A stretch of 21,509 nt of DNA from a virus. Location: positions 1-21,509 of the IMG/VR virus record IMGVR_UViG_3300048004_000019. One strand, written 5' to 3'. Every line of letters begins with the position of its first letter. The stretch's first letter is position 1. Below, piece after piece: positions 9,501 through 20,329 of this stretch. The position numbers were made by a program, and so were the translations under genes. Under the pieces are notes generated by a model. The model saw only the letters and a list, made by a program, of their open reading frames with translations. It was not told where the DNA came from and made no database searches.

Positions 9501-11931
9501 ACTACTATTTCAATTTGCTGGTTATCCGACTGCATTTAATAACATTGTAATGAAAAGGTTTGTAAATGAAAGTTTTAAATACCCGATGTCTGCTTCTCCT
9601 AAAGTACTAGGGGCTACTTTAGCTATGACTTCAGTAGCCGTATTAGGTAATTATTTAAGAAGTGAAGGTAGTTCTTTTGTGGACTATCAAACTGGTAGAC
9701 CTAAAGAATTTGGCGAAATAATAGCTGATGCTTGGGCAAGGTGGGGAGGTTTTGCTTTCTTTGATTATGGTAGAAGAATAAATCAAAATTTTAAATATGG
9801 TTCAGGAACTATTGGCTCAATAGCTAAAGGAGTAACTGGTCCTTTACCTGCAGATATAGTAGATACAATTTTATATAGAAAGGGTCTTTTTTCTTTAGGT
9901 GCTTCTAACTTTCCGGGATATGGAGCTTTAGGTTTAGTTGATAAAGATATGCAAAAAAATGCAAGAAAAGCAGGAAGAGATTTAGATAATAAATTAGCAG
10001 AATTTATGTTTGGTGAAAAAAAATCTTCATCCTCTAATAGAAGAGTAAGATATAGAACTGGAGGACCTTCAGTTAATGTTCCTAATGCTCCTGCTAGACC
10101 AGAAGAAAGAGTAAATAAAAATACTGGTATGCCTTATGATTTAGAAGCTGGACCAACTGCACAGCCTGAGAAAGATAGAAAAGGTTTTAGTGAAGAAGGT
10201 AAGTTACTAGCAACACTAGAAAGAAGACAAAAGAAATTTATAGGCGGTGTAGAAAATTTAAATGATGACTCTATTCCTATGCCTAACCCTATAAATAGAA
10301 ATGATGACTCTATTCCTATGCCTAACCCTATAAATAGAAATGATGACTCTATTCCTATGCCTAGTTTAGGTAAACCCCCTATGTCTAAAGATACAGTTAT
10401 AGATATGGTTAAAGATAAGTCTTGGTTTAAAAGAGCTACTGAACCAGAAGGAGAATTATATAAAGGCAAACATACTTTACTAACAACTTCTATGGAAGCA
10501 GACGGTAAAGAATATTTATTTCCTACAATTAGAGAAGTAAATGGAAAACTTAAAAAACTATCAAATAAAGATGCTTTTAAAGAAGCAATGAGCAAAAAAG
10601 ATTTTTTAGTCTTTGAAGGTAAAGATAAAAGAGAACAAGCTACTGAAGTATCTAAAATAATAAGCAATCTTATTATGCCTACCAGAGATACTAGAATGAA
10701 AAAAGTTACTGGCGGTGTTGGAGCAACTGTTGAGTCTTTGATTAATAAAAAAAGCGATGAACCTGTTAGATATAACAATCCCGGAAATATAGAAGAAGGT
10801 CAAGGATATGCAGGAGAAACTGGTAATGTTTATAACGAAAAAAGAAGAAAAGAAGGAATGAAAGCTTTTGTGGTATTTGATACTCCAGAAGCCGGTATTC
10901 GTGCAATCATGAGAGATACTAGAAATAAAATTAAAAATAGTAAGGGAGATTTAAAAGCTATGATATATAGATATGCTCCTCCAAGTGATAAAAACCCTAC
11001 AGAAAAATATTATAATTTTGTTTTAGGAATGGTAAATAATAAAAAAATTGTAACTGAAGAAGACATACCTAATATTGTGAGAGGTATTATTAAATTTGAA
11101 AATACAAAAGAACTTGCAGATTTTTATTTACAGCCAGAAATTTTTAATAAAGCTATCGCAATAAGTAAACAAGATTTTCCAGAGGGCACTACTACTCAAC
11201 AAATGTTAGAAGCAGTTAATTATTATAAAAGACAAAAATTTGACTCTGGTGGAGATGCAGAAGAAAAAATAAACTTGAACTTTAAGGAAAGAGCTAAAAA
11301 TATTAATGAAACTTATAAAGATAAACCTTTTCATAAAAACATAGATTTTGATTTACTAAGAGACATAGGAAAAAATCCAGTAAGTTCTTATAAATTTGGA
11401 GATAGATACGCACTAGGAAAGAACAACGAAAGAATTGCACTTCCAGATAGTGCTATACGTTTTGCAAATGTTTATTTTAACGCAGCTAAAGCTTTAGGTT
11501 ACAGCGACAACCAAGCTTTAGCAATAACAACTTCTGCTGCTCAAGAAACTGGGTACGGTGCAAAAACAGGTGCTAATTCGTTTGGTATTAAAGCTAGAAA
11601 AGGAGAACCTTATAAAGAAGTAATTACACATGAAGAAAATGCCGAAGGCAGGAAAAAAGAAACTCATAAATTTTATGATTTATCTAACGGAACAGTTCAA
11701 GATAATATTCAATTATTCACACAGACTATGGAAAGAGAATACCCGTCTTATTGGAAAAGTCTTGATACAGAACCTTACTCTAAAGCCATAAAATATTTAC
11801 AAGACATAAACAGAGGTGGTTACAGAAAAGTAGGCACTGGTTATGCTACTGACAAAAATTACTTAAAAAACCTAGATGCCGTACATAAAGGTGTTAAAGA
11901 AAGAATAGGCTATTTTAATGATACTCTATAG
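6541..11931 (+). CDS. Giant internal virion protein with two C-terminal cell-wall modules (gp16-like)
   Basis: This 1,796-aa protein is the largest gene here; T7 gp16 has 1,318 aa. Residues 1-1,200 are helical, with hydrophobic stretches near 160-195, 250-275 and 1,020-1,040 that could insert into membrane. Residues 1,241-1,274 are 2.6 perfect copies of a 13-residue repeat. Residues about 1,287-1,378 form a small domain (TLLTTSMEADGKEYLFPTIR). Residues about 1,405-1,560 start RYNNPGNI and include FDTPEAGIRAI, as in wall-lysis modules of phage structural proteins. Residues about 1,640-1,796 resemble a GH73/FlgJ-type glucosaminidase: Glu1669 in AAQETGYG, NSFGIKA at 1,679-1,685 and GYATD at 1,767-1,771. 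It probably enters the periplasm during DNA ejection and opens peptidoglycan. T7 gp16 has its transglycosylase at the N-terminus instead. AAAGGA at 6524-6529 precedes the ATG. Confidence 0.75.
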   Translation: MSLFTTEPSSLNSNKITEEKEKQPINLQDEPINHRGEGNFLLTDDKYKNLFSTDSKTDPIPVKKQSFQPLDYRTLKTNYGVTDFENNKEVIRDAEKVLGYFGSNDEIVEWLRDAEISTTSLVARALKSKNAPDEIKSAYARLQNNFRKAKLKNPTEWIGLLKNGFVDVMADPLTLVSLMAAPFTAGTSLAARTALNQAIKQGLKRYSMSEATKLAARPAILTGAEGAAWSGLHNYYNQDLDINLGLRNNLDLNELITATTAGGVIGGGLGFVSGALDGRRYFKKQYIMHNPDAQIKIADSKTRKQVVETEQAYDAILPTQRSPRVLVERAIGTFVGKATTPLLTTAKSSKTLDYFLRMLRYDYGRTTFGSGFKEKTDEAALSLSEGIALGFGKRHYPLEQIFNKLGRTSRFKNFFQARITEQDNAALLKLLQTRGTAKQFKYKEEVLDVSDEVKEAYKGVKKLLDDTFDEGVDEGIFRKQNKVKNYFPRIFSFGLLQANKDQFKDLLKAYGYATPVNTKPKKYKKYYNKLELDKKEGERTIELGIPADAKTIDQETFGLQEKYGVDSFEDLAILRKVKESEVAKKAIDLKADEIVENMLAMRHTPFEFRPTGSVGAGKGYMQHRVFTKIPDDELADFLETDVTDVLTDYFTSTTQTIERTKRFGLTNGEFEENIVQKIKQELNDNVPTNLTTEQKIQYSEDIEAVLEKVRNLHGKSTGLDVDRPTTLGGGKLQEISEWGRLSQQMAHLPLAVISSVTEPIIMLSRVGVTDVPAATAEIGKSLVKGIQKAVDRTIQGARSLSGKKVTFKDLDDDYWKELYEVGLALESATLDGFDRLASGDALTGKRAKGFQNMFFKMNFLTQWTQSVQAASFVTGQKIIRRNAQKLYEDSIGATTLSTGNFRNAGVNQKDYLTGQLNELGIDEQDAINWYRQSLNENKEFDVNLSQGLDFYSEKYLPGAGRFVNEVILNPSVAAANKPLMFSHPAGKLLFQFAGYPTAFNNIVMKRFVNESFKYPMSASPKVLGATLAMTSVAVLGNYLRSEGSSFVDYQTGRPKEFGEIIADAWARWGGFAFFDYGRRINQNFKYGSGTIGSIAKGVTGPLPADIVDTILYRKGLFSLGASNFPGYGALGLVDKDMQKNARKAGRDLDNKLAEFMFGEKKSSSSNRRVRYRTGGPSVNVPNAPARPEERVNKNTGMPYDLEAGPTAQPEKDRKGFSEEGKLLATLERRQKKFIGGVENLNDDSIPMPNPINRNDDSIPMPNPINRNDDSIPMPSLGKPPMSKDTVIDMVKDKSWFKRATEPEGELYKGKHTLLTTSMEADGKEYLFPTIREVNGKLKKLSNKDAFKEAMSKKDFLVFEGKDKREQATEVSKIISNLIMPTRDTRMKKVTGGVGATVESLINKKSDEPVRYNNPGNIEEGQGYAGETGNVYNEKRRKEGMKAFVVFDTPEAGIRAIMRDTRNKIKNSKGDLKAMIYRYAPPSDKNPTEKYYNFVLGMVNNKKIVTEEDIPNIVRGIIKFENTKELADFYLQPEIFNKAIAISKQDFPEGTTTQQMLEAVNYYKRQKFDSGGDAEEKINLNFKERAKNINETYKDKPFHKNIDFDLLRDIGKNPVSSYKFGDRYALGKNNERIALPDSAIRFANVYFNAAKALGYSDNQALAITTSAAQETGYGAKTGANSFGIKARKGEPYKEVITHEENAEGRKKETHKFYDLSNGTVQDNIQLFTQTMEREYPSYWKSLDTEPYSKAIKYLQDINRGGYRKVGTGYATDKNYLKNLDAVHKGVKERIGYFNDTL
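10261..10362 (+). repeat. 39-base in-frame tandem repeat, 2.6 copies
   Basis: Units at 10261-10299 and 10300-10338 are identical at every base, followed by a 24-base partial copy at 10339-10362. The unit is 13 codons, NDDSIPMPNPINR, so the reading frame is kept. It lies in a linker between the membrane/helical part and the C-terminal modules of the giant virion protein. Perfect identity, including third codon positions, points to recent slippage-type expansion. Confidence 0.95.
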
Positions 11932-14244: not shown

Positions 14245-16137
14245 TTATCCCTCACAAGCAATACATTCCACTTCATCTAACTTAATTCGTGGAACTTTAA
14301 TGTTAACATTCTCTGCAGCTTTAGCAGCATCAGACCTAAAATAGTAAAGTGATTTTAATTTATTAGCACCGTACCAATGAACATCACTAACATACTGTAA
14401 GTATTCATTATGTTGTTCTTGATTCTGAGTTGAATCAGGTAAGATAAAAAATAGATTAACACTTTGACTTTGACATATAAACTCTTGTCGCTTATATGCA
14501 TGTTCGACAACCCAGATTTGATTTATCTCATCTGCGGTTTTAAATATTTCTTTTTCTTCTTTTGTAAATAACTTTAACTCTTGTATTGACCCACGATTAT
14601 CACTAATATCTTGCCAAACTTTCTTACGCTTTTTAGGGTCAGTTATTTTTTTGTTGATGAGTTTTTCGAGGTTTTTATTTCTAACTTTGTAGCTTCCAGA
14701 TAACGTTTTGTGAGTGAAGACGTTAGCCCTGATAGGCTCGATGGACGGAGAAGTTCCCCCACAAATAATACTGGAACTAGCATTAGGTGCAACAGCAAGG
14801 AGATGGCAATTCCTAAGACCAGAATTAGAAATATCAGGAGCTTCCCCCCGTAATACAGCAAGTCTTCTAGATGCAAGAACAGCAGCTCCTTTGATGAACT
14901 TAAATAATTTATAGTTGATTCCAGTCGAGAAGATTCCCTCAAAGGGAACGTTTTGATTTTGTAAATAAGAATGAAAACCCATTGCACCAAGACCGATAGA
15001 CCTTTCACGATAGGCTGAATAAGCAGCTTTTGTAAAGCCTTCTTTACCTTCTTTAATGTGCTTTTTAAATCTTTCATAGTTTGCATTGTAACCTCCAAGT
15101 GAATTTAAATCGACTGCATTTTCAATAAAGTGTTCTAATACATTGTCAAGCATAGTAACTAAATCATCTATAAATTTATCATCTTTAGACCATTCATCAA
15201 AGTGTTCAAGGTTAACACTTGACAAACAACATACTGCAGTTCTCTCGTCATTAGTAGGTAAGGTTATCTCTGAACATAAGTTACTTTGTCTTACCTCTAA
15301 GCCTAAATCTTTTTGTCCTTGTGGTAGAGCATCATTACAGTTATCTATATTGACAATGTAAGGCTCTCCAGTTTCTGCTCTAGCATCTAATAATTTGGAC
15401 CAGAGTTCTCTAGCTTTTATAATCTTAACAGCTTCATTTGTTTTCGGGTCAATCAACCGCCAATCATCATCTTCTTCTACAGCAGTTAAGAAAGCATTAG
15501 TTATGTTAACTCCATTATGTAAGTTCAAACATTTTCTATTTACATCGCCTCCAGATTCTTTTCTCATTACCATAAACTCTTCAATCTCTGGATGAGATAT
15601 ATCCATGTAAGCAGCGTAGCTACCTCTTCTAGTAACACCTTGATTGAAGGCTAACATTTGAGAGTCTACTACTTTCATAAAAGGTATTGAGCCAGTAGAT
15701 TTACTACCATTACTTGTAGGTATACCATCACTTCTAATATCTCCCCAGTAACCACCAATACCGCCACCAGAACTAGCTAACCAAATGTTTTCATCATAGT
15801 GGCTAGATAAACCTTCACGGTTATCAGGAACATAATTAAGAAAACAACTAATAGGTAAGCCTCTAGTTGTACCGCCATTAGAAAGAATAGGGGTAGAAAA
15901 CATAAACCAAAGATTAGAAACATAGTTATAAATTCTTTGAGCCATATCAAAGTCGGTTTCTTCTTTAAAGGTAGAAACAAATATAGAGGCTCTAGCGAAT
16001 GCTTCTTGTGGCGAAGTTTCATTCTGCCATAAGTATCTATCTTGAAGCGTATCTAAACTAAACTTATCTAATTTTTTATCTCTATCATAATTTATTATGA
16101 TTCCTAAGTAAGGGTGTTCTCCTTTTTTATCACTCAT
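14245..16137 (-). CDS. nrdA: Ribonucleotide reductase class Ia, alpha subunit
   Basis: This 630-aa catalytic subunit reduces nucleoside diphosphates using the radical supplied by NrdB. Active-site residues are seen at Cys98 (LPISCFL), Asn286/Cys288/Glu290 (NLCSE) and Cys303 (AVCCLSS), matching E. coli Cys225, Asn437/Cys439/Glu441 and Cys462. The radical-transfer pair Tyr598-Tyr599 (KSLYYF) is present, and the C-terminal tail has a reducible Cys pair (CIAC, 625-628). Only 97 residues precede the first active-site Cys, against about 224 in E. coli, so the N-terminal ATP-cone that senses dATP is missing. No intron or intein interrupts it. GAGGAAAC precedes the ATG, and the gene overlaps the DUF3310 gene by eight bases. 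Confidence 0.95.
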   Translation of the reverse strand: MSDKKGEHPYLGIIINYDRDKKLDKFSLDTLQDRYLWQNETSPQEAFARASIFVSTFKEETDFDMAQRIYNYVSNLWFMFSTPILSNGGTTRGLPISCFLNYVPDNREGLSSHYDENIWLASSGGGIGGYWGDIRSDGIPTSNGSKSTGSIPFMKVVDSQMLAFNQGVTRRGSYAAYMDISHPEIEEFMVMRKESGGDVNRKCLNLHNGVNITNAFLTAVEEDDDWRLIDPKTNEAVKIIKARELWSKLLDARAETGEPYIVNIDNCNDALPQGQKDLGLEVRQSNLCSEITLPTNDERTAVCCLSSVNLEHFDEWSKDDKFIDDLVTMLDNVLEHFIENAVDLNSLGGYNANYERFKKHIKEGKEGFTKAAYSAYRERSIGLGAMGFHSYLQNQNVPFEGIFSTGINYKLFKFIKGAAVLASRRLAVLRGEAPDISNSGLRNCHLLAVAPNASSSIICGGTSPSIEPIRANVFTHKTLSGSYKVRNKNLEKLINKKITDPKKRKKVWQDISDNRGSIQELKLFTKEEKEIFKTADEINQIWVVEHAYKRQEFICQSQSVNLFFILPDSTQNQEQHNEYLQYVSDVHWYGANKLKSLYYFRSDAAKAAENVNIKVPRIKLDEVECIACEG

Positions 16138-16369
16138 TTGTTTCCTCTAATACTTTTATTAATTTATTTTCATACCACTCTGCTTTTTTTAAATCTTCGA
16201 TACCGTTTTTATAAGTAAATCGCCATCTATATTTATGAGAGTTACCACGCAGATAACCTATAAATTCTTCTTTAGTTAGCATAGCTTCAATAGAATCAAT
16301 ACATTCTATTTTGCCTTGGTTATAATGTGCTGGATTATTAACAAGGTCATTTATTGTTTTATATTTCAT
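16130..16369 (-). CDS. DUF3310 family protein
   Basis: This 79-aa protein carries the pattern of DUF3310: NPAHYNQGKIECIDSIEAM, then YLRGNSHKYRWRFTYKNG, then DLKKAEWYENKLI. The family is common in phages of many bacteria, often near replication or nucleotide genes. Its biochemical function is not established to my knowledge, though some members have been labelled as nucleotide-kinase-like. It covers the whole small domain. It overlaps endonuclease I by 11 bases upstream and nrdA by eight bases downstream, so it belongs to the replication operon. Confidence 0.85.
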   Translation of the reverse strand: MKYKTINDLVNNPAHYNQGKIECIDSIEAMLTKEEFIGYLRGNSHKYRWRFTYKNGIEDLKKAEWYENKLIKVLEETNE

Positions 16370-16805
16370 TATTTATCCAATCCTTTTCAGGTAATTTAGT
16401 TTCGCTAAACCAACGGAAGCCGTTAGCTTCTGCCCATTCAGCATGGGTTCTTTTAGTTTTATCTTTTCTTACTTTAGCTCCGGGCATAGGAGCATAAGGT
16501 TTTTGAAAGAAAAACACCAACTCAATATGTTTCGGTAAAGCTTTTTTAATATGTACGTATTTACTATACTCTGGAAAATCCCAGAACCTACCTTTAGCTT
16601 CAATTAAAACAACACTACCGTCATCAAACTTACGTACAAAGTCTGGTTCGTATTTGTGTTGGATAACATAATCTATAGTTTCCCAATGATGTCGCCAGTC
16701 AGCAAACAATCTTTGATGTAATTCATATTCCCAATGACTATCGTAGCCTCTAGGAATACCTGCCTCTTTTTTAGGTCTTGGTTTTCTTGGTTTTCTTCTT
16801 GCCAT
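16359..16805 (-). CDS. T7 gp3-like endonuclease I (Holliday junction resolvase)
   Basis: This 148-aa enzyme cuts branched DNA, resolving recombination intermediates and helping break down host DNA. T7 gp3 has 149 aa. The PD-(D/E)XK centre can be read directly: Glu26 in SHWEYEL, Asp55 in EPDF, Glu69 and Lys71 in IEAKG, matching T7 Glu20, Asp55, Glu65 and Lys67. The C-terminal half (HAEWAEANGFRW, then LPEKDWI) also follows T7 gp3. The N-terminus is very basic (MARRKPRKPRPKK), fitting DNA binding. The first 35 bases overlap the Lys-rich tail of the exonuclease gene. Here it lies after the gp6-like exonuclease, whereas in T7 gene 3 comes before genes 4 to 6. Confidence 0.9.
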   Translation of the reverse strand: MARRKPRKPRPKKEAGIPRGYDSHWEYELHQRLFADWRHHWETIDYVIQHKYEPDFVRKFDDGSVVLIEAKGRFWDFPEYSKYVHIKKALPKHIELVFFFQKPYAPMPGAKVRKDKTKRTHAEWAEANGFRWFSETKLPEKDWINNEI

Positions 16806-17613
16806 TTTTCTTTATAGTTGAGTCATAATTTTTAGCAAGTTTCCAATATTCTAAAATATTATTAAACATTCCTAAATGTTTCTTTTGTGATTCTTTATCC
16901 CAAACATGATACAAAATAGTTTCAGTATTTTTTCTATCTATAAATATAGATATTCTTTCTACATCTTTAAAGCCACAACCTTGAGCATAAGCTGAGAGTT
17001 GCATACCATGTTCGTCATAAACTAATTTAGCAGGGTCTTTACCCTCTAAGTTATCTTTAGTTTTAAAGTCAATAAATATTCCAGACTTAGAATATAAATC
17101 AACCTTACCACCATAGCCTTGTTTAGCACAGAAAGAATCTTCGGCTATCCATTCTTCATCAGGATAAGTTTCATCTAACCAAGCCTTAATAATTTTATAA
17201 GGTTTAGTTTTTTCTTTACCTAAGAATCCTTTCTCAATCATCCCATGTATTTTTGTACCTTGTTCAGCAGCTTGAATACTAATCTTTTTAGAATCATATT
17301 TACATCTAGCTGAAAATGATTCAGTAGATTCATCTTCGTATCTTTCTAAAGATAGAGCTGAGTTTAGAGCCTGATTTATTTTCCAGTTTTCTAAAGATGG
17401 TTTAGCTATCGTGCCGATGATAGTAGTAACAGAGGGTACTAAACCTAATGTTTTAGCATCTCTTAATGTAGTGTTTCTTTCTCTACCATTAGCACCAATG
17501 ATAGTATACATTGGTTCTCCGTCTTGGTCATACCAATGACCTGATTCGGATGTGAACTTATTATAGTTGTCTACTTTAATTAAGTCAAGTTTATCGTTAT
17601 TCTTCTTTGTCAT
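16771..17613 (-). CDS. PD-(D/E)XK exonuclease, probable gp6-equivalent
   Basis: This 280-aa protein is of the RecB/Cas4-like exonuclease type. Motifs in order are an upstream helix with His123 (GTKIHGMIEKGF), GYGGKVDLY with Asp172, IDFKTK with Asp182 and Lys184, and a Gln motif QLSAYA (Gln205). This is the layout of the nuclease that in marine T7-like phages takes the place of the gp6 5'-3' exonuclease, acting in host DNA breakdown, primer removal and recombination. The N-terminal 70 residues are unassigned. The C-terminus is a Lys-rich tail (KKNGKKKTKKTK) that overlaps the endonuclease I start. GAGGAAC precedes the ATG. The general nuclease assignment is secure; the gp6 role is inferred from context. 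Confidence 0.85.
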   Translation of the reverse strand: MTKKNNDKLDLIKVDNYNKFTSESGHWYDQDGEPMYTIIGANGRERNTTLRDAKTLGLVPSVTTIIGTIAKPSLENWKINQALNSALSLERYEDESTESFSARCKYDSKKISIQAAEQGTKIHGMIEKGFLGKEKTKPYKIIKAWLDETYPDEEWIAEDSFCAKQGYGGKVDLYSKSGIFIDFKTKDNLEGKDPAKLVYDEHGMQLSAYAQGCGFKDVERISIFIDRKNTETILYHVWDKESQKKHLGMFNNILEYWKLAKNYDSTIKKNGKKKTKKTKT

Positions 17614-18019
17614 TATCTAGTTCCTCAAAGGTTTTAAATACATCGGATGTAAAAAGTTTTTGTATATTAACAAGATACATTCGACTAGCATTGTGGTCGC
17701 CACCACTTACAGATTTTAAATAATCTAATTTCTTTACAAGTTTTTTAAGTTTAGGTACATCAAAAACTAAGGTACAAAATATATCATCGCCAATACATAA
17801 GTTATGAAACCAAAAGTCTGCTTCGGTAGCTTCAATACCGGATGGTTTACCATAAGATTGATACTCAATACAAATGTTACCGGTCTTCATCCACATTCCT
17901 CGTTCTGATTTTACTTCTATTTTTTTATTAGTTAGCATATCTGCTATTCTATCTTCTCTAATAGACCCATATTCTAAGTCAAGGTCAAACTTTTTTCTAT
18001 CTTTCTTAGTGGGTTTCAC
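17597..18019 (-). CDS. PD-(D/E)XK-like nuclease, 140 aa
   Basis: This 140-aa protein starts at GTG 18019, preceded by AAAGGAG. A compact nuclease-like core is seen: an acidic helix with Glu22 (REDRIADML), then KIEVKSE with Glu35 and Lys37, then GNICIEYQSYGKPSGIEATE followed by ADFWFHN. The EVK followed by GNI-IE and SGI-x-T-x-AD-W is a pattern I recall from small PD-(D/E)XK proteins of cyanophages and other marine phages. The substrate is unknown. The GTG and first residues MKPTK are shared, base for base, with the 104-aa gene at 18298 through the 15-base direct repeat. It overlaps the 101-aa gene by 14 bases and the exonuclease by 17. Confidence 0.75.
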   Translation of the reverse strand: MKPTKKDRKKFDLDLEYGSIREDRIADMLTNKKIEVKSERGMWMKTGNICIEYQSYGKPSGIEATEADFWFHNLCIGDDIFCTLVFDVPKLKKLVKKLDYLKSVSGGDHNASRMYLVNIQKLFTSDVFKTFEELDNDKEE

Positions 18020-18020
18020 T
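18006..18020. repeat. 15-base junction direct repeat, copy A
   Basis: This copy reads AGTGAAACCCACTAA on the leftward strand and is identical to 18599-18613. It contains the last codons (SETH, stop) of the 101-aa gene and the GTG start of the 140-aa gene. The start-to-start distance of the two copies is 593 bases. Outside the 15 bases similarity drops at once. Confidence 0.95.
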
Positions 18021-18311
18021 AGAATCTCCTTTATGATTTACAAATTTTATATTTTGTGTTTTTGGATTATACCCTAATATTTTTACTCCTAGTTTTTTTT
18101 GTTTAGATGTTCTTTGTTTAGTAGCATAATTACCAACTAAAGTTTTAACATCTATTAAACTGACATTGTTTTCTTCATCTATTGCTACAATATCTACTGG
18201 TCCATCACAACCACAATTTCTAAAAACTTCATAACCTTTTTCTAATAAAAAAGTAACTGCCTTTAATTCTGCAATATCTCCTTTTCTACTATGTGATTTA
18301 ATATTCTTCAT
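18006..18311 (-). CDS. Small PD-(D/E)XK endonuclease-like protein, 101 aa
   Basis: This 101-aa protein has a full, minimal PD-(D/E)XK core: Glu15 in KGDIAELKAV, Asp40 in DGPVDIVAID, and Asp54-x-Lys56 in SLIDVKT. This E, PVDIV, IDVK layout is that of small resolvase-like or intron-associated endonucleases. The core fills the protein, leaving only a short basic tail, so it would act as a free-standing nuclease. Its last residues, SSETH, match those of the DNA polymerase (WSETH) because of the 15-base repeat. With the 104-aa gene it forms a 593-base unit that looks inserted. It overlaps both neighbours by 14 bases. The nuclease fold is well supported; a homing role is an inference. Confidence 0.8.
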   Translation of the reverse strand: MKNIKSHSRKGDIAELKAVTFLLEKGYEVFRNCGCDGPVDIVAIDEENNVSLIDVKTLVGNYATKQRTSKQKKLGVKILGYNPKTQNIKFVNHKGDSSETH

Positions 18312-18612
18312 TAGAATTTCTTTTTAAAAATCTAGTAAAAAAATCTTTAATGTTTTTTGAATAATAATGTTTTTTAGGATAACCAGTAGGGTTATAGGGA
18401 GACCATCTTCCAGTTGTATAGTAATATGCATACATTTTATCATTAAAATAAATTCTTAACATTTGTGCTTTAGTTTCTTCAAAATAAATATCTTTTCTAT
18501 CTAAAAACTTTTTTACATCCTCTAAAGATTCTTTAGTACTATGTTTAAAAATTACTTCTCCTTTAGAGTTAACTCTATTAAATTTCCAATTATATTCTTT
18601 AGTGGGTTTCAC
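18298..18612 (-). CDS. Hypothetical protein of the inserted cassette, 104 aa
   Basis: This 104-aa, basic, Tyr-rich protein (KMYAYYYTTGRWSPYNPTGY) carries a KSTKESLEDVKKFL-type helix and no motif I recognise. It starts at GTG 18612, with AGGAGG at the end of the polymerase gene as ribosome-binding site. The first codons (MKPTK) lie in the 15-base repeat. By hand count the 60-base lines across it contain about 15-33% G+C, averaging about 22%, while sampled polymerase lines contain about 32-42%, so it differs from its neighbour. It overlaps polymerase and the 101-aa nuclease by 14 bases each. It could be a DNA-binding partner of that nuclease, but this is only a guess from pairing. Confidence 0.65.
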   Translation of the reverse strand: MKPTKEYNWKFNRVNSKGEVIFKHSTKESLEDVKKFLDRKDIYFEETKAQMLRIYFNDKMYAYYYTTGRWSPYNPTGYPKKHYYSKNIKDFFTRFLKRNSNEEY

Positions 18613-18613
18613 T
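18599..18613. repeat. 15-base junction direct repeat, copy B
   Basis: This copy is identical to 18006-18020. It contains the last codons (SETH, stop) of the DNA polymerase and the GTG start of the 104-aa gene. The polymerase tail GGNWSETH resembles the end of T7 DNA polymerase (NWAICH), so this copy is likely the original one. Confidence 0.95.
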
Positions 18614-20329
18614 CCAGTTACCTCCTAGCTTGTACTCGCCAGTCAAAGCACATCTCATGCCCAACTGCTGTCCTGCTTCTTCAATACATTCAACACCCAT
18701 AAGACCAGTAAATTCTGCTATGTCTTGTTTAACTTGCATCTGCCATTCATCGTGAATGTTAGCAACAAACTTAGCATCAAGTGTATTTAGTTTTATTTTA
18801 TTATCAAAGATACACATGGCTTTTTTCATAGCTATCGCACCTCCACCCTGTAGTAAAGTATTTAGAGCAGCATGTTCGTGCCTTACATAAATCTTTCTAC
18901 CATCTAAACCTTTTAAGAATCCTCTTTTTGAAGCTTCTCTAACTCTGTTCGTAAGAGTTTCAAGTGATGGCAAGTTGGTAAGAAAACGCTTTCTAAGTCG
19001 CTTACCATCTTCTCTTTTTCCTCCAACCACTGTACCAAGCTTTTCATCTCCAGCTCCGTAGATAAGTGCATAGATGAAAGTTTTTGCTTTATCTCTTGAT
19101 TCAAGTCCTGCAAGTTCTTGATTTGTTTTGTGTATGTCGCCATTGATTACCTCGTTAATATATTCTTCATCATTCATGTAGTGAGCTAACATTCTAAGTT
19201 CTAAGCCACTAGCATCAATACCTAATAAATTATACCCTTCTGGTACAGTCCAACAAGAACGACACTCTTCTCCGTAAGGACTATATACACCGGGAACTTG
19301 TGCTAGATTAGGACTTCTGTGAGACATACGACCAGTAATAGTGCCGTTAGGTATCACCGAACCATGAACTCTTTCACCTTTTAACTCATCTATCCAAGAG
19401 GATATTTGAGCTATCCGTTTCTGTAATAATAAAAACTCGGCAATGAGCCGAGCTTCGTGTATATGATTTATCTTTTTAAGAGTGCCTTCATCAACTATAG
19501 GCTGTCCAGTAGGTGTAAATCTTTCAGGTTTCCACCCAAAGTCTACTAAGTATTCGCCAATCTGTTTGCGACTACCAAGATTAAAGTCTTGTAGTTTCTT
19601 ACGCATAAATGGGTCATAGTTCTTAGTAGTCAAACGCTTTTCATATTCTTCATCAGTCATGCCACGTTTAGATAAAGTACCGTCTTTCTTTATATAAGGA
19701 GTTACAAGTTTATCTTCTACCCATTTAGGTTTAAAAGTAGTCTGTACTTCATCTTCTACTTCTATCATTCTAGCTTTTAACTTAGCTAAAAGCATCGTGG
19801 CTTTTTCCGTATCAAATAGAAAACCAGTTTGTTCTTGTTGGTGCATGATTTGAGCAACTTGTGTTTCTAAATCTACACTATCCTGACTAAATCCTACACC
19901 TTCTTTTTCTAAAGCATAATAAACTTTCTCATTAAGTAATACATCTTGTTCACAATACTCTAGCATTTCGTGTGTATAGGTATCAAAATCATCAGGTTGT
20001 TCTTGCTTGTGAAAGTTAATTCTATATCCCCACGTTTTTAAACTGTGTCCGTTTTCTCTAACAGGTTGAAATAACCTAGACATAACTAAAGTATCAACAA
20101 CTTGAGCTTCTAATTTAACATCAAGTATTTTTTCTATTGCAGGAATATCATAGCCTATAATATTATGTCCGATTAAAACATCAGCACTTTGTAAATATTC
20201 TACCCCGTCAAGTAATTGATTAGGGTTAAATGTACGGCAAGTATCTTCTGCTAAATCTTTGGCAACAATACACCAGATTTTACTAGGATTTAATCCGTCT
20301 GCTTCTATATCAAAAATCAATTTCTTCAT
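18599..20329 (-). CDS. Family A DNA polymerase, T7 gp5-like
   Basis: This 576-aa replicative polymerase has a 3'-5' proofreading domain. Exonuclease motifs: Asp7 and Glu9 (FDIEADGL), Asp61 (GHNIIGYD), Tyr125 and Asp129 (YCEQD). Polymerase motifs: A with Asp372 and Glu377 (IDASGLELR), B with Arg412, Lys416, Tyr420 and Tyr424 (RDKAKTFIYALIYGAG), C with Asp527-Glu528 (IHDEW). Tyr420 is at the E. coli Phe762 position, as in T7. It is shorter than T7 gp5 (704 aa); the region that holds the thioredoxin-binding loop in T7, about residues 203-242 here, is reduced. SPYGEECRSCW and the C-terminus follow T7 closely. The ATG overlaps the helicase end by 20 bases, with AGGAGA upstream. No intron or intein is seen. 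Confidence 0.95.
   Translation of the reverse strand: MKKLIFDIEADGLNPSKIWCIVAKDLAEDTCRTFNPNQLLDGVEYLQSADVLIGHNIIGYDIPAIEKILDVKLEAQVVDTLVMSRLFQPVRENGHSLKTWGYRINFHKQEQPDDFDTYTHEMLEYCEQDVLLNEKVYYALEKEGVGFSQDSVDLETQVAQIMHQQEQTGFLFDTEKATMLLAKLKARMIEVEDEVQTTFKPKWVEDKLVTPYIKKDGTLSKRGMTDEEYEKRLTTKNYDPFMRKKLQDFNLGSRKQIGEYLVDFGWKPERFTPTGQPIVDEGTLKKINHIHEARLIAEFLLLQKRIAQISSWIDELKGERVHGSVIPNGTITGRMSHRSPNLAQVPGVYSPYGEECRSCWTVPEGYNLLGIDASGLELRMLAHYMNDEEYINEVINGDIHKTNQELAGLESRDKAKTFIYALIYGAGDEKLGTVVGGKREDGKRLRKRFLTNLPSLETLTNRVREASKRGFLKGLDGRKIYVRHEHAALNTLLQGGGAIAMKKAMCIFDNKIKLNTLDAKFVANIHDEWQMQVKQDIAEFTGLMGVECIEEAGQQLGMRCALTGEYKLGGNWSETH

Follow-up and report, generated by a model that had tools for sequence, protein, structure and literature searches.

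The DNA analysed here (the window, a virus record of 21,509 bases with kinship to the marine Pelagibacter phages) holds two small genes between the gene for its DNA polymerase and one for a 140-aa protein, all four on the minus strand. The same 15 nt are present where the first of these small genes begins and where the second one ends, and these facts raise the question of how two genes could come to lie between two others leaving both of them unbroken.

A gene junction present in repeated copies

The polymerase gene (positions 18599-20329), which is the host of the slot described below, encodes a family A enzyme of 576 aa (PF00476, E 1.1e-49) with the C-terminus GNWSETH, and a tail of the form W-x-ETH is kept in nearly all relatives. 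Its SETH codons and stop lie in the sequence AGTGAAACCCACTAA (18599-18613, minus strand), where a 104-aa gene (18298-18612) already starts with GTG, so that the two genes overlap by 13 nt. In a second copy of AGTGAAACCCACTAA (18006-18020, minus strand) a 101-aa gene (18006-18311) likewise ends in SETH and the 140-aa gene (17597-18019; phrog_13596, E 1.9e-41) begins with GTG, again with a 13-nt overlap, and MKPTK is the N-terminus of both the 104-aa and the 140-aa proteins. The overlap between the 104-aa and 101-aa genes is of 13 nt as well, and there a degenerate third copy is found on the minus strand (AATGAAGAATATTAA, 18298-18312), with 9 of 15 matching positions, which the initial annotation had not noted. 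At this place the relative L016 has an intact copy, AATGAAACCCACTAA, which is also how the 3' junction copy reads in most siblings of the window.

Read on the plus strand, the repeat (TTAGTGGGTTTCACT) occurs within the window only at 18006-18020 and 18599-18613, with identity ending at exactly 15 nt and with a stop and a GTG start in each copy, which confirms the duplicated gene junction described in an initial annotation of this DNA. By itself the 15-nt repeat is no more than mildly unusual: 200 dinucleotide shuffles gave 0.1 pairs of 15-mers within 700 bp per window, and any such pair in 14 of the 200 (7%). It is its position at both gene junctions, along with the comparative data, that gives it significance. 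If the two frames must both stay open, coding leaves the 15 nt almost no freedom to vary, and the identity of the DNA and the shared SETH and MKPTK ends then constitute one fact and not two.

The longest repeats that occur twice in the window are low-identity coding repeats unrelated to the junction. Besides the junction copies, the window has a single long exact repeat at close spacing, a 39-nt in-frame unit, NDDSIPMPNPINR, present in three tandem copies (10254-10370) within a 1796-aa virion-type gene. Elsewhere in the window, 152 nt (16158-16309) within a 79-aa gene (16130-16369) show 75-77% DNA identity with Acinetobacter phages, in which the counterparts are annotated as nucleotide kinase or hypothetical, a degree of conservation that is unusual for distant phages.

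Empty and occupied junctions among related phages

The comparison drew on viral contigs that were retrieved because they code for the end of the polymerase, for one of the 140-aa, 104-aa and 101-aa proteins, or for a junction pattern. Distinct sites with both the polymerase and the 140-aa gene numbered 179 (136 empty, 42 occupied and one, L212, odd), counts that refer to the retrieved loci, partly picked via their occupants, and not to population frequencies. At the empty sites the polymerase directly overlaps the start of the 140-aa gene, with one 13-nt stop-start overlap. Among them is L118, whose polymerase is 99.4% identical to that of the window, and a direct overlap of the polymerase with the next gene, i.e. 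an uninterrupted junction, is also present in the isolate HTVC031P; in HMO-2011 and HTVC103P the 140-aa gene lies apart from the polymerase, and these two are therefore uninformative on this point. Whatever the occupant, its first gene begins at the position of the polymerase tail where the 140-aa gene begins in empty phages, and the majority of occupants overlap the 140-aa start. Relatives with the polymerase directly before the 140-aa gene, for which the initial annotation had suggested to search, do therefore exist, and its proposal that the polymerase copy of the junction is ancestral is upheld.

When the 3' copy was compared with the 5' copy across occupied sites, 9 to 15 of the 15 positions matched, the match being exact in 3 of 41 and in the range of 9-14 in most carriers. 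This variation in repeat length and identity rules out a strict target-site duplication, and neither a target duplication of fixed length nor a recombinase among the scanned occupants, as would correspond to insertions of the transposon or integron type, was found. The earlier idea of an insertion that duplicated the junction without damage to any gene stands as regards the unbroken neighbours, and not as regards the duplication in its strict sense. Longer exact junction repeats are present in L266 (20 nt, with a 92-aa occupant of C-terminus NWYETH) and in L201 (19 nt).

As to the nature of the occupants, and with classes established by scanning representatives and assigning the rest by similarity and size, a nuclease is present in 31 of the 42: 18 are of the PD-(D/E)XK superfamily (11 of type A, the kind found in the window, and seven of type B), eight are GIY-YIG (T5orf172) and five HNH/endonuclease-VII-like, one of the latter being preceded by a 104-type gene. 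The other 11, without a recognisable nuclease, correspond to a 104-type gene alone in eight cases and to small proteins of 62, 81 and 92 aa in three. Each nuclease family keeps to this place: all 27 GIY-YIG relatives with at least 73% identity and visible upstream DNA are at the polymerase junction, as are the three HNH relatives with visible upstream DNA, while relatives of the 101-aa protein with at least 89% identity sit behind the polymerase even where the downstream gene differs from the 140-aa gene. A PD-(D/E)XK relative (52%) was also located directly behind a more distant polymerase (44%). In this group of marine phages the junction is a slot where genes for unrelated DNA-cutting enzymes plug in repeatedly, their neighbours remaining unbroken.

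Occupants can also accumulate, in stacks that reach three cassettes in L016 (the 104-aa gene, the 101-aa gene and a type B nuclease in series). The initial annotation had treated the 104-aa and 101-aa genes as one unit; each of them is also found alone at the junction in relatives, and they are better described as two stacked cassettes. The pair was not found at other sites in close relatives, as had been suggested to check, and what emerged instead was the sharing of the polymerase junction by other nuclease superfamilies. Among named phages none had the 101-aa gene at the polymerase junction, only weak matches appearing elsewhere, and no homologue of the 104-aa protein was found.

The way in which neighbours would remain functional can be read from the translation signals. 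The conserved W-x-E-T-H codons and those preceding them are shown, according to anti-SD pairing, to encode a predicted ribosome-binding site and a start that overlaps the stop by 13 nt. In the window this site is AGGAGGT (18620-18626, minus strand), lying in polymerase codons and expected to serve whichever gene follows. The polymerase tail encodes, some 10 nt ahead of the start codon, a sequence resembling AGGAGG, with a mean anti-SD duplex of -8.9 kcal/mol where the junction is empty and -8.1 where it is occupied, versus -2.3 in controls from the body of the polymerase. These values show putative signals available to the 140-aa gene in phages with an empty junction and to the first gene of the cassette in those where it is occupied. 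A second candidate site, AAAGGAGA (18025-18032, minus strand), lies within the final codons of the 101-aa gene and would serve the 140-aa gene; as a tendency across occupied sites, cassettes encode a Shine-Dalgarno sequence ahead of the 140-aa start (mean -6.5 vs -1.9 in controls). Since the last codons of a cassette usually bring a new ribosome-binding site and a new 140-aa start, nothing is broken, and because one set of signals is taken and another supplied, intact expression of both neighbours is predicted.

Age, flanking DNA and probable mobility of the cassettes

In a tree of 163 polymerases, with 37 occupied rows, at least 25 changes in occupancy are required, compared to a mean of 33.5 and a minimum of 27 with shuffled labels. 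Sister pairs with polymerases 97-99% identical and unlike junction states exist: L160 is empty and L159 carries a GIY-YIG gene, their polymerases being 99.1% identical, and among close sisters L137 is empty whereas L007, L136 and L138 contain, respectively, a PD-(D/E)XK nuclease, an 81-aa gene and an HNH nuclease. Nuclease genes of three unrelated superfamilies are found at one junction, are gained and lost between near-identical phages and are common to phages with diverged polymerases.

The 101-aa protein was compared with known families. Its scores for PDDEXK_5 (PF11645; 24.2 bits, cutoff 26.1, E 3.7e-5) and for Hjc (PF01870; 19.1 bits, cutoff 21.1) are both below the cutoff, and since this is so for PDDEXK_5 its assignment to the superfamily is based on motif and fold. 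Residues E15, D40, D54, K56 (in a D54-x-K56 arrangement) and Q71, which include the catalytic motif of these nucleases, are invariant in 20 relatives, and a structural model (pLDDT 82) had in Foldseek the homing endonuclease I-Ssp6803I as its best solved match (2ost, E 1.9e-4), with Hjc resolvases as a close second. The identification of this protein as a PD-(D/E)XK nuclease in the initial annotation is in agreement with these results.

In the same carriers, mean dS is 0.10 for the 101-type gene and 1.44 for the polymerase, that is, about 14-fold fewer synonymous changes, and dN/dS for the 101-type gene is 0.175, indicative of purifying selection; together, these values mean that the gene is mobile and kept functional. 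It is an open reading frame outside any intron or intein, at a conserved junction, missing from close relatives and spread beyond its host genes, as expected of a free-standing homing gene. Purifying selection, and the likeness in sequence and fold to Hjc, would also agree with useful cargo, i.e. a small Holliday-junction resolvase or a nuclease acting on competitors, beneficial and gained or lost by selection. We regard this as improbable, given that the window already has a T7-type endonuclease I (16359-16805; PF05367, E 8.5e-6; phrog_945, E 3.6e-30), most close relatives do without the 101-aa gene and unrelated nucleases fill the same junction. Less probable still is that the cassette is ancestral and that a deletion between direct repeats removed it from the empty phages. 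Such a deletion between the 15-nt copies would yield the exact empty junction, and some single losses may be of this kind; against it, most sites on the tree are empty, as is that of the isolate HTVC031P, the occupants are mutually unrelated, perfect repeats are absent in most carriers and the 101-type gene is, by its dS, far younger than the polymerases ahead of it.

The 104-aa protein yielded nothing solid against Pfam and PHROGs, and its model, usable by its confidence (pLDDT 81), had no significant match among solved or viral folds. Relatives have the module by itself, in two copies, or in the company of HNH and PD-(D/E)XK nucleases, either as a neighbour or as a fusion: it adjoins HNH in L321, is fused to HNH in L325 (888-1682) and L326 (3971-4765), and in L328 (3980-4786) a second 104-type copy is followed by a PD-(D/E)XK domain in one fusion. 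The last three cases have the appearance of domain shuffling, with an undescribed module involved. In view of these associations we infer a role in targeting for it; being also found alone at the junction, it could possibly be a nuclease itself. In L022 (3965-4771), in another phage context and with no polymerase nearby, a PD-(D/E)XK gene is followed by a 104-like gene, in reverse order.

The DNA on both sides of the junction was also compared. Between the window and L118 identity is 99% in the polymerase, 75-82% in the 140-aa gene and again 99% in the exonuclease, and L001, which carries the cassette of the window, has mostly a 140-aa gene of the L118 type with its start converted. In the lineage of the window, the cassette would have arrived with an exchange of the whole 140-aa gene, or else the exchange would have come later. 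More generally, two diverged alleles of this gene (about 75% DNA identity) are swapped between phages otherwise 99% identical, the window and L116 having one and L118 and L001 the other. L160 and L159 show 0 differences at -600 to -100 in the polymerase and 4 in its last 100 positions; the 140-aa gene has 13 within its opening 100 positions and almost none further on. Tracts resembling co-conversion are clear in L159/L160 and in L118/L001, and insertions are nearly clean in L131/L011 and L137/L136. Divergence beside the junction was larger in 10 empty/occupied pairs than in 35 empty/empty pairs on the downstream side (p 0.013, with pairs that are not independent) and not significantly so upstream. 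This pattern is compatible with break repair, short of proof, and the short centred tract of L159/L160, as one clear pair, hints at a local cut at the junction.

The homologous flanks, the swapping of the 140-aa gene itself and the short overlap conserved at either end, which would allow clean swaps of modules, could also result from a junction that tolerates accessory genes, exchanged by ordinary recombination in the flanks without nucleases as drivers. Some occupants do lack a nuclease, and because these amount to 11 of 42 the two types of exchange are not separated beyond doubt. Passive exchange seems nonetheless unlikely to us: a random draw from phage genes would hardly give nucleases of three superfamilies in 31 of 42 cases, each nuclease family keeps to the polymerase junction, and the L159/L160 tract is short and centred there, rather than a long exchange.

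Taken together, the data make it probable that the insert in the window is a stack of two free-standing cassettes of the homing-endonuclease type at a hot spot, and this two-gene plug-in is most likely a selfish mobile element. According to this model, the nuclease would cut the uninterrupted junction in another phage infecting the same cell, with the 104-aa module perhaps helping to direct the cut, and repair from the occupied copy would then install the cassette and some of its flank. The superfamilies could have come to share the junction by recombination via the short conserved overlap, or through the acquisition of a new nuclease body by a cassette already in place. A broader proposal, which we consider possible and put forward tentatively, is that the C-terminal codons of the polymerase are a base-exact homing slot for unrelated nucleases, with stacked, translation-neutral cassettes that repeat the stop-start overlap, and that the 104-aa protein represents an undescribed family of targeting proteins or nucleases.

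Three unrelated nuclease folds meet here on one 13-nt overlap anchored in codons that the polymerase rarely changes, and most of the cassettes furnish replacement translation signals for the neighbour gene, so the slot suggests a route by which mobile genes may enter compact arrays of overlapping genes without harm. Empty, single and multiple alleles in near-identical phages offer a natural series for testing how sites are chosen, what tracts insertions leave and what an insertion costs, and the unstudied 104-aa module and the very small PD-(D/E)XK enzyme come forward as possible site-specific nucleases.

Relation to known systems

The closest solved fold, I-Ssp6803I (PDB 2OST), is like the 101-aa protein a member of the PD-(D/E)XK superfamily and is a homing endonuclease; it is encoded in a cyanobacterial intron and has about 150 aa, whereas the nuclease of the window is free-standing, of 101 aa and from a phage. 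Gene 5.3 of T7, regarded as of the HNH homing type, is likewise small and immediately downstream of a family A polymerase (gene 5), although it starts 16 nt past the polymerase stop and without overlap, unlike the cassette described here.

It is already known that homing endonucleases cluster near phage DNA polymerases, with classes mixed at one locus, as illustrated in the report on ICP1-like T5orf172 and IPA-HNH enzymes near replication genes (Barth et al., 2023; PMC10448857). Location near the polymerase, several classes per locus and domain shuffling are common to those clusters and to the present slot. In contrast, they extend over neighbourhoods of several kb, and in the passages of that report considered here no shared base-exact junction, no PD-(D/E)XK enzyme and no 104-aa module was found. 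F-CphI of cyanophage S-PM2, a free-standing phage homing enzyme with an endonuclease VII motif, resembles the HNH/EndoVII-like occupants and differs in gene and site, no polymerase junction being described in the section of the source considered (PMC6083498). In open-licence papers we found no description of a polymerase-junction slot, i.e. a base-exact stop-start overlap common to PD-(D/E)XK, HNH and GIY-YIG cassettes, nor any of the 104-aa module.

The free-standing homing endonucleases of T4 (seg, GIY-YIG, and mob, HNH) have no intron, are located between conserved genes and are inherited by break repair with co-conversion, and the cuts they make reportedly fall hundreds to thousands of bp away from where their genes are inserted (PMC2988022). 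The cassettes of the polymerase junction share with them the condition of intron-less nuclease genes between conserved phage genes, and differ in that three superfamilies converge on one base-exact stop-start overlap and in that the tract of L159/L160 is short and centred on it.
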